From Variovorax terrae (GTDB taxonomy: Bacteria; Pseudomonadota; Gammaproteobacteria; Burkholderiales; Burkholderiaceae_C), in NCBI RefSeq assembly GCF_022809125.1, contig NZ_JALGBI010000002.1:691685-755684 (forward strand): a DNA stretch of 64,000 nt, read 5' to 3'. Below the pieces are notes generated by a model. The model worked only from the letters and a program-made list of their open reading frames with translations. It searched no databases and was not told where the DNA came from. A program made the translations under genes and the position numbers. Shown here in pieces: positions 18,637 through 23,346 of the stretch (position 1 is the first letter of the stretch; every line of letters begins with the position of its first letter).

Positions 18637-19008
18637 TCAGATCTCGCGGGCGATCCGCTCGAGCTCCTTGCGCTCGATGAACTCGTCCATGCGCGAGAGC
18701 AGGCGCCACCACTCGCTGCCGTCCTCGCGGTAGACCCGGATGGCGCCGGCGCGCACCAGGATCCTGCGCAACTCGTCGTCCTCGAACCCGCCCAGGTTTT
18801 TCCGCAGCGTCTCGAACGAGCGGTCGGTGAAGCTCTTGTGGCTCAGAAAGTGGCGCGCCGTTTCCTCGGCCATGAATTCGGCCTTGTTCTGTTCGTGCAG
18901 CACCTTGATCTGGTGGTTGAACTGCTGGCGGTTCAGCAGGTAGCTGATGCCGCCGCCCACGGCGGCGCCGAGCAGGGCGGACAGGACGGGCACGAGAGAG
19001 GCATCCAT
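18637..19008 (-). CDS. small membrane-anchored protein of unknown function
   Basis: 123 residues. The N-terminus (MDASLVPVLSALLGAAVGGGISYLL) is one membrane segment, followed by a charged helical cytoplasmic region (NRQQFNHQIKVLHEQNKAEFMAEETARHFL). It is convergent with lolA, sharing only a few bases between them, and divergent from the broken rarA gene. The family is not one I can name. Start at ATG 19006-19008; the longer upstream frame is a shadow of rarA. Confidence 0.7.
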   Translation of the reverse strand: MDASLVPVLSALLGAAVGGGISYLLNRQQFNHQIKVLHEQNKAEFMAEETARHFLSHKSFTDRSFETLRKNLGGFEDDELRRILVRAGAIRVYREDGSEWWRLLSRMDEFIERKELERIAREI

Positions 19009-19057: not shown

Positions 19058-19504
19058 GTGAGCACCGCTGCGAACCACACCCCCCTGGCTGAACGCCTGC
19101 GTCCCAAAACCCTGGGGGAGGTCATCGGCCAGCAGCACCTGCTGGGCGAGGGCATGCCGCTGCGCATCGCCTTCGAGTCGGGCCAGCCCCACAGCTGCAT
19201 CCTGTGGGGGCCGCCGGGCGTGGGCAAGACCACCATCGCCCGGTTGATGGCCGATGCGTTCGACGCGCAGTTCATCACCATCAGCGCCGTCCTGGGCGGC
19301 GTGAAGGACATCCGCGAGGCCGTAGAGCAGGCCCAGGTGGCGCAGGGCATCATGGGCAGCGGCGGGCGCCGCACCATCGTGTTCGTGGATGAGGTGCACC
19401 GCTTCAACAAAGCTGTCAACCACCATATAAATCAGATACTTAGGAAGGTCGTTGTGCAAATTTTTGGGCTTCCCCATTGTTCTGAGGTGGGAAACCATGC
19501 CTGA
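19058..19504 (+). pseudogene. rarA: 5' fragment of native rarA, broken by insertion
   Basis: The first ~118 codons of a GC-rich rarA (replication-associated recombination AAA+ ATPase). Starts with GTG at 19058, VSTAANHTPLAERLRPKT, and keeps Walker A GPPGVGKTT and Walker B FVDEVHRFNK. Directly after the HRFNK codons (base 19411) the sequence changes to AT-rich DNA unrelated to rarA. The frame runs on for 31 foreign codons (AVNHHINQILRK...) to a stop at 19502-19504. The fragment would have no lid, sensor or tetramerisation region and is surely not active. The matching 3' end of the gene survives at 23194-23346. Confidence 0.9.
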
Positions 19505-20810
19505 TTTGTTCGCACAAGAGCCTGCTGCACCACTGGCTGAAGCCCTTCGCCCCAAGACCTTGGACGAGGTCATTGGGCAGTCTCACTTGCTGGGTGAAGG
19601 CAAGCCTCTGAGACTGGCTTTCCAGTCTGGAAAACCACACTCCATGATTTTTTGGGGGCCGCCCGGTGTTGGTAAAACCACCTTGGCACGGCTCACAGCT
19701 ACAGCCTTCAAGTGTGAGTTCATAGCCCTGTCTGCCGTGTTGTCTGGTGTCAAAGACATCAGAGAAGCAATGGATCAAGCGAGGCAATATCTTGCGCAGG
19801 GCAAGAACACCATCTTGTTCGTAGACGAAATTCACAGATTCAATAAGTCTCAACAAGATGCCCTGTTGCCTCATGTGGAATCAGGGCTGTTCACCTTTAT
19901 TGGTGCTACCACTGAGAACCCTTCTTTTGAGGTGAACTCGGCTCTGCTGTCACGTGCTCAGGTCTATGTGCTGAAGTCACTGACAGAAGAGGAATTGAAG
20001 CTGCTCTTGAAGCGGGTGCAAGAAGAAGGTGCCCTTGGTGAGCTTCAGTTTGAAGATAAAGCAGTAGATACCATCATTGGCTATGCAGACGGTGATGCCA
20101 GAAGGTTCTTGAACCTGCTTGAACAGTGCAAAACGGCTGCTGGTGCTGCTGGTGTTCAGAAGGTTGATAGTGACTTCATCCAGAATGCTTTGACCTTGAA
20201 TTCAAGGCGTTTTGATAAAGGTGGAGACAACTTCTATGACCAGATTTCTGCTTTGCACAAGTCTGTTCGTGGTTCCAATCCAGATGCAGCACTCTATTGG
20301 CTGACAAGAATGTTGGACGGTGGTGCTGACCCAAGGTATCTGTCCAGAAGAATTGTTCGTATGGCTTGGGAAGACATTGGGCTTGCTGATCCAAGAGCCA
20401 TGCAGATAGCCAATGATGCAGCACTGACCTTTGAGCGGCTTGGAAGTCCAGAAGGTGAACTAGCCCTTGGTCAAGCAGTTATCTATCTGGCTGTAGCTGC
20501 TAAGAGCAATGCTGGATACAACGCCTACAACCAAGCAAGAGCCTTTGTGAAGCAAGACAAGAGCCGTGAGGTTCCTGTTCACCTTAGAAATGCACCTACC
20601 AAGCTGATGAAGGAACTGGGCTATGGGCATGAATACCGATATGCTCATGATGAGCCCAATGCCTATGCTGCTGGTGAAACCTATCTTCCTGACGGCATAG
20701 AAGAACCTGGTTGGTATCAGCCAGTGCCTAGAGGGTTAGAGATCAAGATTGGTGAAAAGCTGGCTCTGCTGAAGAAATGGGATGAAGAAGCTGGCAAGGG
20801 GGATAAATGA
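19497..20810 (+). CDS. rarA: replication-associated recombination protein RarA (acquired copy)
   Basis: Full-length RarA/MgsA AAA+ ATPase, 437 residues, homologous to clamp-loader subunits and acting at stalled replication forks. Walker A GPPGVGKTT, Walker B ILFVDEIHRFNKSQQDALLPH, sensor I GATTENPSFEV, Arg finger region LLSRAQVY, then the C-terminal tetramerisation domain (ALYWLTRMLDGGADPRYLSRRIVRMAWEDIGLAD and YAHDEPNAYAAGETYLPDGIEEPGWYQP). Start taken at ATG 19497 (MPDLFAQEP), preceded by GAGGTGG at 19484-19490. It is clearly related to, but different in base composition from, the broken native rarA around it, and can replace it functionally. Its stop codon overlaps the start of the next gene by 4 bases (ATGA), so it may be co-translated with the cargo. 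Confidence 0.93.
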   Translation: MPDLFAQEPAAPLAEALRPKTLDEVIGQSHLLGEGKPLRLAFQSGKPHSMIFWGPPGVGKTTLARLTATAFKCEFIALSAVLSGVKDIREAMDQARQYLAQGKNTILFVDEIHRFNKSQQDALLPHVESGLFTFIGATTENPSFEVNSALLSRAQVYVLKSLTEEELKLLLKRVQEEGALGELQFEDKAVDTIIGYADGDARRFLNLLEQCKTAAGAAGVQKVDSDFIQNALTLNSRRFDKGGDNFYDQISALHKSVRGSNPDAALYWLTRMLDGGADPRYLSRRIVRMAWEDIGLADPRAMQIANDAALTFERLGSPEGELALGQAVIYLAVAAKSNAGYNAYNQARAFVKQDKSREVPVHLRNAPTKLMKELGYGHEYRYAHDEPNAYAAGETYLPDGIEEPGWYQPVPRGLEIKIGEKLALLKKWDEEAGKGDK

Positions 20811-21427
20811 TTGTTGAGCATGAAGGTGAATTTTCCATTCACGGGCCTTACCAAGCCTTCTATATTCAATCCATGCTCTTCAACACCTCGTCGGCACTTC
20901 AAGCATGTGAAAGAGCTTCCAAATACATTGAAGTCATCTCGGCTGGGAAGATTGGGCCTCAAGACAGCAAAGATGAGCTACTGGATTGCTTGCAAAACTT
21001 CATCAACCATAGTGGTGCAGTTGCAAGATACTTCTTTCCCTCGTTTGGTGGAATGAAGAAAGAAAAGAAGGACATTCACCAAAAACGTGCTGCTCACTTG
21101 TGCAGGGTTTTTCAAGTGGATGAGAAAAGCCCTCTTTTTGATAAGCAGCTTCGGAATGCCATAGAGCATTTTGATGAACGGCTGGATCGCTACCTTGAAG
21201 ATGGCATTGTTGGGCAAATTTTCCCAAGCCTTATTCTTGATAAGCCAGAAGATACAGAAGTCCCTCACCATATTTTCAGAGCCTACTACCTTAATGATGG
21301 TATCTATCAGGTTCTAGGTGAGCGGCACCATGTTCAGCCAATCTTGGATGAAATGATAAGAGTCCATGACATGCTGGTGAAGTTTGACCAGAATGGCGGA
21401 ATGCTTCGTATCCAGTCAAAAACTTGA
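20807..21427 (+). CDS. predicted HEPN-type protein (R-x4-H), possible ribonuclease
   Basis: 206-residue protein of unknown function. LFDKQLRNAIEHFDERLDRYL carries R116-NAIE-H121, an R-x4-H motif with Asn after Arg as in HEPN ribonucleases. It is preceded by two long hydrophobic helices, FNTSSALQACERASKYIEV and ELLDCLQNFINHSGAVARYFF, as expected for the four-helix HEPN core. HEPN proteins include RNase toxins of toxin-antitoxin and abortive-infection systems; the activity here is inferred. The start ATG overlaps the rarA stop codon, with AAGGGGG just upstream as ribosome site. No nucleotidyltransferase (MNT) partner is next to it. Confidence 0.6.
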   Translation: MIVEHEGEFSIHGPYQAFYIQSMLFNTSSALQACERASKYIEVISAGKIGPQDSKDELLDCLQNFINHSGAVARYFFPSFGGMKKEKKDIHQKRAAHLCRVFQVDEKSPLFDKQLRNAIEHFDERLDRYLEDGIVGQIFPSLILDKPEDTEVPHHIFRAYYLNDGIYQVLGERHHVQPILDEMIRVHDMLVKFDQNGGMLRIQSKT

Positions 21428-21437
21428 GTGAGCAAGC

Positions 21438-22256
21438 ATGGGACTCTTCAGTAGAATAAAAAAGACAATAGGCATGGGAAGCCATGAAGCTTTTAGGCGG
21501 TGGTCTGCTTCTGAGCTTGAAGAAAAGAAGGTCTATCTTGAGAATAAGCCTCCTGAAGAGTTCACTGCTGAAGATCACTATCTAGCTGCTGAATGGGTCA
21601 TTCAAAGATACCTGCCTGAAGGTGAAGACCCAACACCTGAGCAGTGGTCAAAGACCATAGGTGATATCCGCAAGAAGATTGACATCAATCTTCAGAAGGC
21701 TGCTGCTGGTGAGCTTGTTAAGACTGAGTATGTTCAACCAGAGCCATATGCTCTAACCAAAGAAGACTTCTTGAGGGATGTGGTTCCCACCTTCTCAAGC
21801 TTTGGACTGCTGCCTGATCCCTATCTGAAAGATGGGCAAGGTAGAGAGCTATGGACAGTGCTGTTTGAATTCACCCAGCCATATTCATACAAGCATGGTG
21901 AAGCAAAAGATGCCTTGATTCTCTTCTGTGATACCTACCTGGCTGAGAAGCTTGTTCAGGACCTGGGGCGCACCTACACAGCAATGCGAAAAGCACAGCA
22001 AGAAGGTTCAGCCAAGATGAAGGTGGTTTGCTCTGGCAAGCAATGCCCAGCTTGCATGGCCTTGGATGACAAGAAGCTGAGTGTTGAAGAACTCCTGGCC
22101 TCCTTCAAGAATGGGGCTCCAAAATTTCCTCATCCACTGCATAATGAAGAGGAAGTGAGTTGGTGTCCTGCACCATATCTTTCACCAGAACTTGCATTGA
22201 GGGAAGGTGATGACCCTGAGTTTCATGAAGTGCTTTTGAAGATTCTTGAGAAGTAG
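21438..22256 (+). CDS. unknown protein with Cys/His cluster
   Basis: 272 residues, no known family that I recognise. Starts MGLFSRIKKTIGMGSHEAFRR, a short basic helix with no clear signal peptide. The middle (residues ~20-190) is helical and charged. The C-terminal part has CSGKQCPACMALDDKKL (C198, C203, C206), FPHPLH (H232, H235) and WCPAPYL (C243), which could bind Zn2+. The CPxCxxLDxK plus HPxxC order faintly recalls the C-terminus of SPP1 gp7/Mu gpF-type phage head proteins, which may be chance. Starts 10 bases after the HEPN-like gene; AT-rich like the rest of the insert. Confidence 0.75.
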   Translation: MGLFSRIKKTIGMGSHEAFRRWSASELEEKKVYLENKPPEEFTAEDHYLAAEWVIQRYLPEGEDPTPEQWSKTIGDIRKKIDINLQKAAAGELVKTEYVQPEPYALTKEDFLRDVVPTFSSFGLLPDPYLKDGQGRELWTVLFEFTQPYSYKHGEAKDALILFCDTYLAEKLVQDLGRTYTAMRKAQQEGSAKMKVVCSGKQCPACMALDDKKLSVEELLASFKNGAPKFPHPLHNEEEVSWCPAPYLSPELALREGDDPEFHEVLLKILEK

Positions 22257-22266
22257 AAGGCAGACA

Positions 22267-22500
22267 ATGAAGAAGCAAATTGAAATCTATGTTCGCAATA
22301 GTGGCGATAGAAACCTGCTGATGCTGCATGTTCCAGAGGGCATGAAGGAACGACTCATTGAGGGTATCAGGAATGGTAGCTTTGAAGCACAAGATGCCAG
22401 CATTCATTTGGAGCTATCTATTCTCAATGAATGGAAGGATGTAGATAATCCTGAGCATGTGAGGCTGGAAGTGAACGAAATCACCGCCAGCTACGAATAA
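22267..22500 (+). CDS. small acidic protein of unknown function
   Basis: 77 residues from the ATG at 22267: MKKQIEIYVRNSGDRNLLML, then HVPEGMKERLIEGIRNGSFEAQ and HLELSILNEWKD. It looks like a small alpha/beta fold with an acidic surface. A purine-rich stretch (AGAAGTAGAAGGCAG) lies upstream. Its stop codon TAA shares one base with the start of the next gene (TAATG), so the two are probably coupled. No family recognised. Confidence 0.65.
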   Translation: MKKQIEIYVRNSGDRNLLMLHVPEGMKERLIEGIRNGSFEAQDASIHLELSILNEWKDVDNPEHVRLEVNEITASYE

Positions 22501-22808
22501 TGAATCTAAATACTGACAAGTCAATCAAGCGATTCGTTTTTGGACTGCATGAGAATGAAATGGGTCTTGAAGTCATTGCTGTGGTCTTCAATGATGAAAG
22601 CAATGAAAAGGTTCCTCTGACAGTTGAAAGTCTCACATGGGTTTCTGAACTGGTGAAGACTCAAGGTGTGAGGGTCAATAGCCAGAATTGTATGAACTTG
22701 GCATGTCAGAAGCTTTGGGATGAGCTGCTTCACTCCAAGGAAAGCAAACAGTTTCTTGATAGGTTGATTGAACGGGCCAAACAAGAAATGAAGCAAAAGA
22801 ACCAATAA
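22500..22808 (+). CDS. small protein of unknown function
   Basis: 102 residues. N-terminal part predicts as a beta-rich unit (FVFGLHENEMGLEVIAVVFNDE), C-terminal part as a long charged helix (LWDELLHSKESKQFLDRLIERAKQEMKQK). Last gene of the cassette: a rho-independent terminator overlaps its stop codon. With the previous gene it could be a regulator, antitoxin or adaptor pair; no family recognised and nothing in the sequence decides this. Confidence 0.65.
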   Translation: MNLNTDKSIKRFVFGLHENEMGLEVIAVVFNDESNEKVPLTVESLTWVSELVKTQGVRVNSQNCMNLACQKLWDELLHSKESKQFLDRLIERAKQEMKQKNQ

Positions 22809-22829
22809 GCACCTTCGGGTGCTTTTTTC
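22807..22829 (+). terminator. terminator of the inserted operon
   Basis: AAGCACC-TTCG-GGTGCTTTTTT: 7 bp stem, stable TTCG loop and T run. It overlaps the stop codon of the last cargo gene and closes the five-gene unit that begins with the acquired rarA. Confidence 0.9.
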
Positions 22830-22847
22830 ATACCTGCTTTATTTTTG

Positions 22848-23193
22848 TGAATGCGACGTCCCCCCGGATTTGAGTAGCAGGTGAGTTGGGAGTCCAATCC
22901 CATGCAACAGGAGATTGGACATGAAGAAGAGATTTACGGAAGAACAGATCATTGGCTTCCTGCGGGAAGCCGAATCGGGCTTGCCGGTGGCCGAGCTGTG
23001 CCGGCGGTACGGTTTCTCCGAGGCCAGCGATTACCCCTGGCGCAGCAAGTTTGGTGGCATGAGCGTGTCCGATGCCAAACGCCTGGAGGAGTTGGAAACC
23101 GAAAACAGACGGCTCAAGCGGCTGCTGGCCGAAGCCCTGCTTGAAAACGAGGTGACGAAAGAAGCCTTAGGAAAAAAGTGGTGAGCGCGCCCG
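22848..23193 (+). mobile_element. left part of an IS3-family element (IS407-like), truncated
   Basis: Starts at or near the TGTGAATGCGACGTCCCCCC run around 22846-22865, which has the TG start and C run of IS3-family ends (the exact end is uncertain). It holds a whole orfA and the first codons of orfB (GTGAGCGCGCCCGC...), after which rarA sequence begins. The right inverted repeat and the DDE transposase are missing, so it cannot move by itself. Confidence 0.75.
22921..23184 (+). CDS. IS3-family transposase OrfA (helix-turn-helix part)
   Basis: 87-residue OrfA: MKKRFTEEQIIGFLREAESG, LCRRYGFSEAS, WRSKFGGMSVSDAKRLEELETENRRLKRLLAEALLENEVTKEAL. Helix-turn-helix followed by a leucine zipper, typical of the IS407 group. 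It ends at the A6G slippery stretch (GGAAAAAAGTG, 23170-23180) where -1 frameshifting would make the OrfAB transposase, but the orfB part has been deleted. SDYPWRSKF replaces the usual SYYLWRSKF, a hint of decay. Confidence 0.88.
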   Translation: MKKRFTEEQIIGFLREAESGLPVAELCRRYGFSEASDYPWRSKFGGMSVSDAKRLEELETENRRLKRLLAEALLENEVTKEALGKKW

Positions 23194-23346
23194 CACGACG
23201 AGGAAGGCGGCTTTGCGGCCGGGGAGCGCTACTGGCCCGAGGGCATGGCCGCACCCCAGTTCTACCGCCCGGTGGAGCGCGGCCTGGAGATCCGGATTGC
23301 CGATAAGCTCCGCGAACTGAAGAAACTGAATGATCAGAAAAACTGA
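23194..23346 (+). pseudogene. rarA: 3' remnant of native rarA
   Basis: GC-rich and in the RarA C-terminal pattern: HDEEGGFAAGERYWPEGM, then FYRPVERGLEIRIADKLREL. It corresponds to the last ~50 residues of the native gene whose first ~118 codons are at 19058-19411. About 270 codons of the middle are missing. It joins the IS sequence at a short overlap (GCGCGCCCGCACGACG) that fits both the IS orfB start and rarA. Confidence 0.9.

Follow-up and report, generated by a model that had tools for sequence, protein, structure and literature searches.

A window of 64,000 nucleotides from Variovorax terrae (contig NZ_JALGBI010000002.1, positions 691,685 to 755,684, forward strand; "the window" below denotes this whole stretch) probably contains the remnant of an integrative island that split the resident rarA gene and carried a whole substitute rarA behind its left end. 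There is good support for the identity of the element. From sequence we infer that the carried gene rescues rarA function, is translationally coupled to the broken gene and is recoded at the crossover. Related islands do likewise in a few other bacteria, and the arrangement therefore looks less like an accident than like a strategy that can be reused. Two types of rarA are distinguished: type B, with a best match of at least 74% identity to the carried rarA over most of its length, and type A, to which the broken resident belongs. The locus was composed of the following features.

19058..19402, + strand: 5' part of the resident (type A) rarA up to the crossover; 82% identical (tblastn) to codons 45–155 of the type-A rarA of locus L077
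19403..19410, + strand: crossover core TTCAACAA of the left attachment site (attL), codons F-N-K after Walker B; the identical 8 bp occur in genomes G018 and G023 (attL and right attachment site, attR), in attL of G215 and in attR of G388
19411..19496, + strand: left end of the element, native frame open to a TGA overlapping the start of the carried rarA; homologous to the G018 left end
19497..20810, + strand: complete carried rarA (type B), crossover reading TTCAATAA; assigned by Pfam, tree and comparison of cores
20807..21427, + strand: cargo gene, 206 aa, function unknown, with an RNxxxH (HEPN-like) motif seen by eye; no Pfam, PADLOC or NCBIfam match
21438..22256, + strand: cargo gene, 272 aa, function unknown; 82% identical relative in Paracidovorax konjaci, one Pfam match far below cut-off
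22267..22500, + strand: cargo gene, 77 aa, function unknown; 88% identical relative in locus L036, adjoining the relative of the 21438..22256 gene
22500..22808, + strand: cargo gene, 102 aa, function unknown; open reading frame (ORF) only, no family match
22918..23184, + strand: remnant of orfA of an IS3-family insertion sequence (IS) where the right end is lost; HTH_Tnp_1 76 bits, transpos_IS3 51 bits
23194..23346, + strand: last 50 codons of the resident rarA; 76% identical to codons 419–464 of the type-A rarA of L077

A preliminary description of this DNA had proposed a native rarA broken into a 5' part (19058–19411) and its last 50 codons (23194–23346) around an AT-richer segment with a whole divergent rarA and four unknown genes. 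The coordinates hold. The 5' part, about 118 codons, reads up to the motif VDEVHRFNK, and about 260 middle codons of the native gene were wholly missing from the locus. GC content per 300 bp fell from 0.61–0.70 at 18.0–19.5 kb to 0.41–0.54 in intervals starting at 19.35–22.8 kb. The carried gene contained an MgsA_C domain (217 bits, Pfam) and was about 68–71% identical in protein sequence to the resident 5' part. None of the four cargo ORFs had a Pfam, PADLOC or NCBIfam match above cut-off. When all 25 candidates in the window genome were scored, no complete rarA was found besides 19497–20810. The transpos_IS3 score of the orfA remnant was under the cut-off for a whole transposase; one partial copy (69%) was found elsewhere in the genome. 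A small ORF with the look of a real gene lay on the minus strand at 18637–19008, between lolA and rarA.

Related islands, their junctions and their cargo

The window genome was the sole member of its genus; comparisons were made at family level (399 genomes: 250 + 79 + 70) and wider. In four genomes, namely the window genome, G018, G023 and G215, the left junction fell at the same rarA codon and was followed by a complete type-B rarA. G018 and G023 also retained the rarA 3' part, beginning at the same codons; in G215 just about 29 codons of the 3' part were matched. Attachment sites attL and attR of G018 and G023 had the 8-bp TTCAACAA in common. With four left junctions at one codon and a shared core at both ends of two elements, the islands have a fixed integration site inside a conserved gene. 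The two-ended elements were 43,373 bp (G018, GC 0.46) and 33,218 bp (G023, GC 0.48), their 3-kb flanks had a GC content of 0.61–0.71, and the complete rarA started 86–110 bp past the crossover. The left end of the window element was identical to that of G018 in 80 of 96 alignment columns, core included, so the window once held an element of the same subfamily.

A tyrosine recombinase adjoined attR in G018 (426 aa) and G023 (423 aa). The two proteins were 46% identical and matched Phage_integrase at 47 and 46 bits, respectively. At E ≤ 1e-40 this recombinase was found in 3 of the 399 family genomes (G018, G023 and G388), each time beside the 3' half of rarA at the far end of the island. At the same threshold it was found in none of 274 genomes of the class, a set that held no genome known to match, and none was seen in G215. 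Relatives of the recombinase were present in 2267 records of the plasmid collection, every one below 60% identity; the viral contigs contained neither relatives of the recombinase nor the attL pattern. In G388 (L113, 1–2909) the recombinase, with an internal TAG, lay beside the rarA 3' half, and the right end matched those of the islands.

These junctions bear out the preliminary description where it had a foreign element disrupting rarA and bringing a substitute: the left junction is shared with G018, G023 and G215, and G388 has the matching right end. That rarA is a repeated target was borne out by the same genomes and by an unrelated element with its own rarA in genome G266. That the cassette is intact or recent was not supported: neither recombinase nor right end is left, and most of the native 3' half has been lost.

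As had also been predicted, other cargo sets flanked by a second rarA occurred in related genomes, and their cargo differed. In the G018 island there were type III methylase and restriction proteins, an IS apparently interrupting the restriction gene, together with an ATPase that matched PDC-S46 at 913 bits and a NERD-UvrD protein. The G023 island encoded a DrmD-like helicase, type III methylase and restriction proteins, a TrwC relaxase (84 bits), a TrwB coupling protein (126 bits) and ArdC. The relaxase match of G018 was sub-threshold, and in the window neither a relaxase nor a coupling protein was seen. Peptide-transporter-like genes were recognised by eye in the G215 cargo. The search of the other 249 family genomes gave a single partial relative (42%) of the 206-aa cargo protein of the window; its AlphaFold model had a mean pLDDT (predicted local distance difference test) of 39, and the HEPN idea rests on the motif seen by eye. 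No relative of the cargo gene at 21438–22256 was found in viral contigs or plasmids. In Paracidovorax konjaci (L036, 6313–9066), close relatives of two of the window cargo genes adjoined a different tyrosine recombinase of their own.

The unrelated element split the resident rarA of G266 near codon 247 and was about 13.1 kb long. It began next to attL with three overlapping large recombinase-like ORFs, which had weak, sub-threshold PF00589 matches, and at its end stood a complete third-type rarA on the opposite strand. Its junctions had TCTACG in common, and the carried rarA reads TCTACT there. Large plasmids of Diaphorobacter and Comamonas (L157, 1945–3258; L169, 6001–7314) contained a relative of this carried copy, a third-type rarA adjoining a ZIP metal transporter. 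In G248 (L159, L160, L170) the resident rarA was broken at the G266 site (codons 246/249), and the next 135 bases, which reach the contig end, did not resemble the left end of the G266 element; another contig of this draft genome (79% complete) started with the rarA 3' part. This is possibly another element at the G266 site.

Types of rarA, and proposed decay and gene replacement

Identity to the carried rarA was bimodal across the family. Among the matches listed, at least 62 of the 399 genomes were of type B (hand count), including four that qualified through the carried copy (the window genome, G018, G023 and G215), and most of the others were of type A, at 60–73% identity. The acquired type was patchy in the wider family: both types occurred within the same genus in at least 15 genera among the matches listed (hand count from tables). 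In the sampled loci, types A and B mostly shared one place, ftsK-lolA-rarA-livH; some loci were without these neighbours.

A tree of 106 rarA sequences was built by a quick method, with 35 of its 103 inner branches open; it included a G189 sequence with a frame-shifted tail and sequences of G359 and G276 with internal stops entered as X. One shallow branch of 19 sequences (support 91) united the copies carried in the window, G018 and G023 with 16 residents of 11 genera; the G215 carried copy lay in a different branch of type B. Among the split residents, those of G018 and G388 clustered with their genus-mates. The split resident of G023 (L101/L100) was itself of type B, so that an already replaced gene may have been hit again.

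States that may be residues of such events were seen in two genera. In genus g52, G051 had a type-A gene, G166 a type-B gene carrying at its stop an insert of about 4.1 kb, with a helicase that has HA repeats and a weak Mrr-type match, and G244 a type-B gene followed by a scar of about 49 type-A codons; outside rarA the DNA of these genomes was mostly 83–92% identical. In genus g21, G231 had a type-B gene and 1.4 kb of extra DNA with an alginate-lyase-like protein, between flanks 93–97% identical to those of G020. The window locus is an intermediate between the two-ended element and the scar.

Loss of rarA seems to be selected against in the family, since the gene was present in 223 of 224 good genomes. 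In genome G405, from another order, the sole rarA found (L162, C25 2043–3338) was 90% identical to the carried copy of the window and had AAT at the crossover (core TTTAATAA); transfer or, less likely, contamination would explain it. A class-wide scan (369 genomes, four candidates each, 23 scored in full) revealed no further split gene with a complete rarA among the matches listed. Most partial matches in the 23 fully scored genomes sat at contig ends, and G544 had two complete, different rarA genes.

Several further candidates were rejected as insertions. The partial matches fell at contig ends in G046, G083, G222, G160 and G320, reflected frameshifts in G189 and G384, and were pieces of one open frame in G037, G165, G226 and G309. 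G057 and G359 each had two complete rarA genes, and G386 had one complete and one truncated gene.

Features of a possible rescue copy and alternative explanations

Between the core and the start of the carried gene there were 86 bases in the window, 86 in G018, 110 in G023 and 89 in G215. In all four left ends the frame of the broken gene was the only stop-free frame of the three, and it ended at a TGA on bases 6–8 of the carried gene. With the homologous ends of the window and G018 counted as one, the joint chance of the open native frame in shuffled sequence was about 0.01 for three cases. As the carried rarA runs in the same direction and the broken frame reaches the overlapping stop, the host rarA promoter would be usable and translational coupling is probable.

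The core of the carried copies read TTCAATAA or TTTAATAA in 4/4 cases, and that of the residents was exactly TTCAACAA in 93 of 97. The Asn codon of the core was AAT in 4/4 carried copies versus 2/97 residents (Fisher 3.7e-6, relatedness ignored); 8 of the 9 residents with GC up to 0.58 keep AAC. Because the carried crossover codon is synonymously different, the recombinase should not confuse the carried copy with the true sites. The open frame and the altered codon point the same way and, neither being proof, suggest a rescue copy.

The following course of events is proposed. The tyrosine recombinase of the island would cross over at TTCAACAA inside rarA, just past Walker B. This would split rarA and supply a complete rarA of another lineage right behind the left end, in the same direction. 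Cargo would lie between the ends, in relatives often restriction or other defence genes. In the window, most of the native 3' half would then have disappeared along with the right end and the recombinase, and the IS3 remnant lies at the break; precise excision would no longer be possible, and the rescue copy would now be the permanent rarA.

Several observations weigh against this proposal. Neither recombinase nor attR is present in the window copy of the element. The G388 assembly was without a complete rarA and without the rarA 5' half and so shows no rescue copy; either its left part is unassembled or it is an island without one. In the class, rarA is not universal (matched in 266 of 314 good genomes, four candidates scored each), and rescue may therefore not be vital everywhere. 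Taken singly, the open native frame had a shuffle chance of 0.33 in the window, 0.27 in G018, 0.13 in G023 and 0.23 in G215, and a TGA overlapping the rarA start was also common among residents, at 24 of the 45 that were scorable. The carried copies are also AT-richer, and their own codon usage gives four AAT codons a chance of about 0.03. Finally, the core is unaltered in most of the type-B residents that lie close to the carried copies in the tree, so that descent may have run either way.

Among the alternatives, the one that survives best is that the carried rarA serves the element itself, in replication, in recombination or as a fitter RarA, its place at the left end being incidental and the gene cargo rather than rescue. 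This is unlikely but has some support. The plasmid collection gave 110 records with rarA (E ≤ 1e-40, some chromosome-sized), and 35 phage records had it too (E ≤ 1e-20); the plasmid count is inflated because several "plasmid" records of 2–5 Mb look chromosomal (e.g., Neisseria gonorrhoeae). The carried copy of G266 is at the right end and in the opposite direction, and the missing copy in G388 fits as well. On the other side, in 4/4 left ends at the common codon the carried copy comes first and is co-oriented with the native gene, whose frame is open up to the start of the copy; the element that carries the copy itself sits in rarA.

It is improbable that allelic exchange by homologous recombination brought the type-B gene and its adjoining cargo to the window locus without site-specific integration. 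Type B does occur at the canonical locus in many genomes, and G231, with its whole type-B rarA and 1.4 kb of extra DNA between flanks 93–97% identical to those of G020, is of the kind that such exchange would leave. The native 5' part in the window, however, ends at the crossover of the two-ended elements, and the next ~85 bp match the element end. Allelic exchange may be the right explanation for many stand-alone type-B genes.

Two other explanations are less probable still. That RarA itself is the recombinase that places the element was proposed for a clostridial cassette (PMC2764570, PMC4824171, as far as these accounts were consulted), but a tyrosine recombinase stands at attR in G018, G023 and G388, and the domains of RarA are AAA+ and MgsA, with a Resolvase match of 19.3 bits against a cut-off of 23.3. 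If rarA had been tandemly duplicated long ago and an IS had split it afterwards, the IS3 orfA remnant would be accounted for, but hardly two genes of different deep rarA types and differing GC, or a junction common to larger islands.

The integrative island with a substitute rarA remains the preferred reading of the window. A wider generalisation is offered tentatively: disruption and rescue may be a general lifestyle, reached several times by unrelated integrases, in which an element breaks a conserved DNA-maintenance gene, in the present case within the most conserved motif, and brings along a full replacement whose crossover is recoded and whose translation is coupled to that of the broken gene; decay of such elements would spread a rarA lineage across genera and even orders. 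In this general form it would be a natural parallel to synthetic cleave-and-rescue drives. The window locus also suggests a route by which mobile elements can swap a housekeeping gene permanently, which matters for gene phylogenies.

Comparison with known systems

The closest known arrangement is the element RME of Vibrio cholerae S24, which splits recA and carries a working divergent recA and an integrase (PMC4405046). As in the islands described here, a DNA-repair gene is split mid-gene, one end of the element holds a complete divergent copy and the opposite end a phage-type integrase, and its authors stated that the carried recA avoids loss of function. RME differs in its target, in its 9-bp inverted repeats and in having inserted in both orientations when tested. 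The working copy and excision were proven by experiment there, and the islands here are known from sequence. Coupling and core recoding are absent from the part of that account examined. Also cited in that paper is a Clostridium difficile insert of 4.2 kb in a thymidylate synthetase gene; it disrupts this gene and brings a version of it, the target being different from that of the islands.

The bont/E cassette of Clostridium botulinum and C. butyricum type E was compared by its published description and not by clostridial sequence (PMC2764570, PMC4824171, PMC8776182, each in the part available). The cassette resembles the islands in its split of rarA (codon 102), in its intact rarA from a different lineage and in its independent insertion into two species. 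It differs in belonging to another phylum, in carrying its rarA at the 3' flank of the toxin cluster and in occurring also in a plasmid helicase gene. Its ends are a 6-bp TTCATC repeat, whereas the islands have the TTCAACAA core and not TTCATC. On the coding strand TTCATC reads GATGAA; these may be the Asp-Glu codons of Walker B, and the site used here is a few codons away. RarA was proposed as the recombinase of the cassette; one strain was described with a predicted integrase/transposase next to the cluster, and other strains with transposase genes. For its carried rarA the present results offer a simpler reading, rescue rather than recombinase.

Two further kinds of element share single features. 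GInts, with three integrases (PMC5385486), resemble the G266 element, which starts with three overlapping recombinase-like ORFs, albeit with weak recombinase matches; unlike in that element, a carried copy of the target receives no mention in the part of the account examined. Ordinary islands with a replacement segment in the attachment site of the element (attP) likewise preserve the function of the target after integration (PMC10111431, in the part consulted), but they restore part of the gene by fusion, whereas the islands here supply a whole gene and abandon the native halves.

In the part of the open-licence literature searched, no report of rarA-targeting islands in this host group was found, and by titles and abstracts RME was the only island carrying its own target that was recognised. 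Relative to this known kind, the apparent novelties are the host group, an identified recombinase, probable coupling, recoding and decay into gene replacement. The clostridial (rarA) and Vibrio (recA) oddity is thereby tied to a defined recombinase and crossover in betaproteobacteria, and two mechanistic ideas, translational coupling of a rescue gene and recoding of its crossover, become testable.

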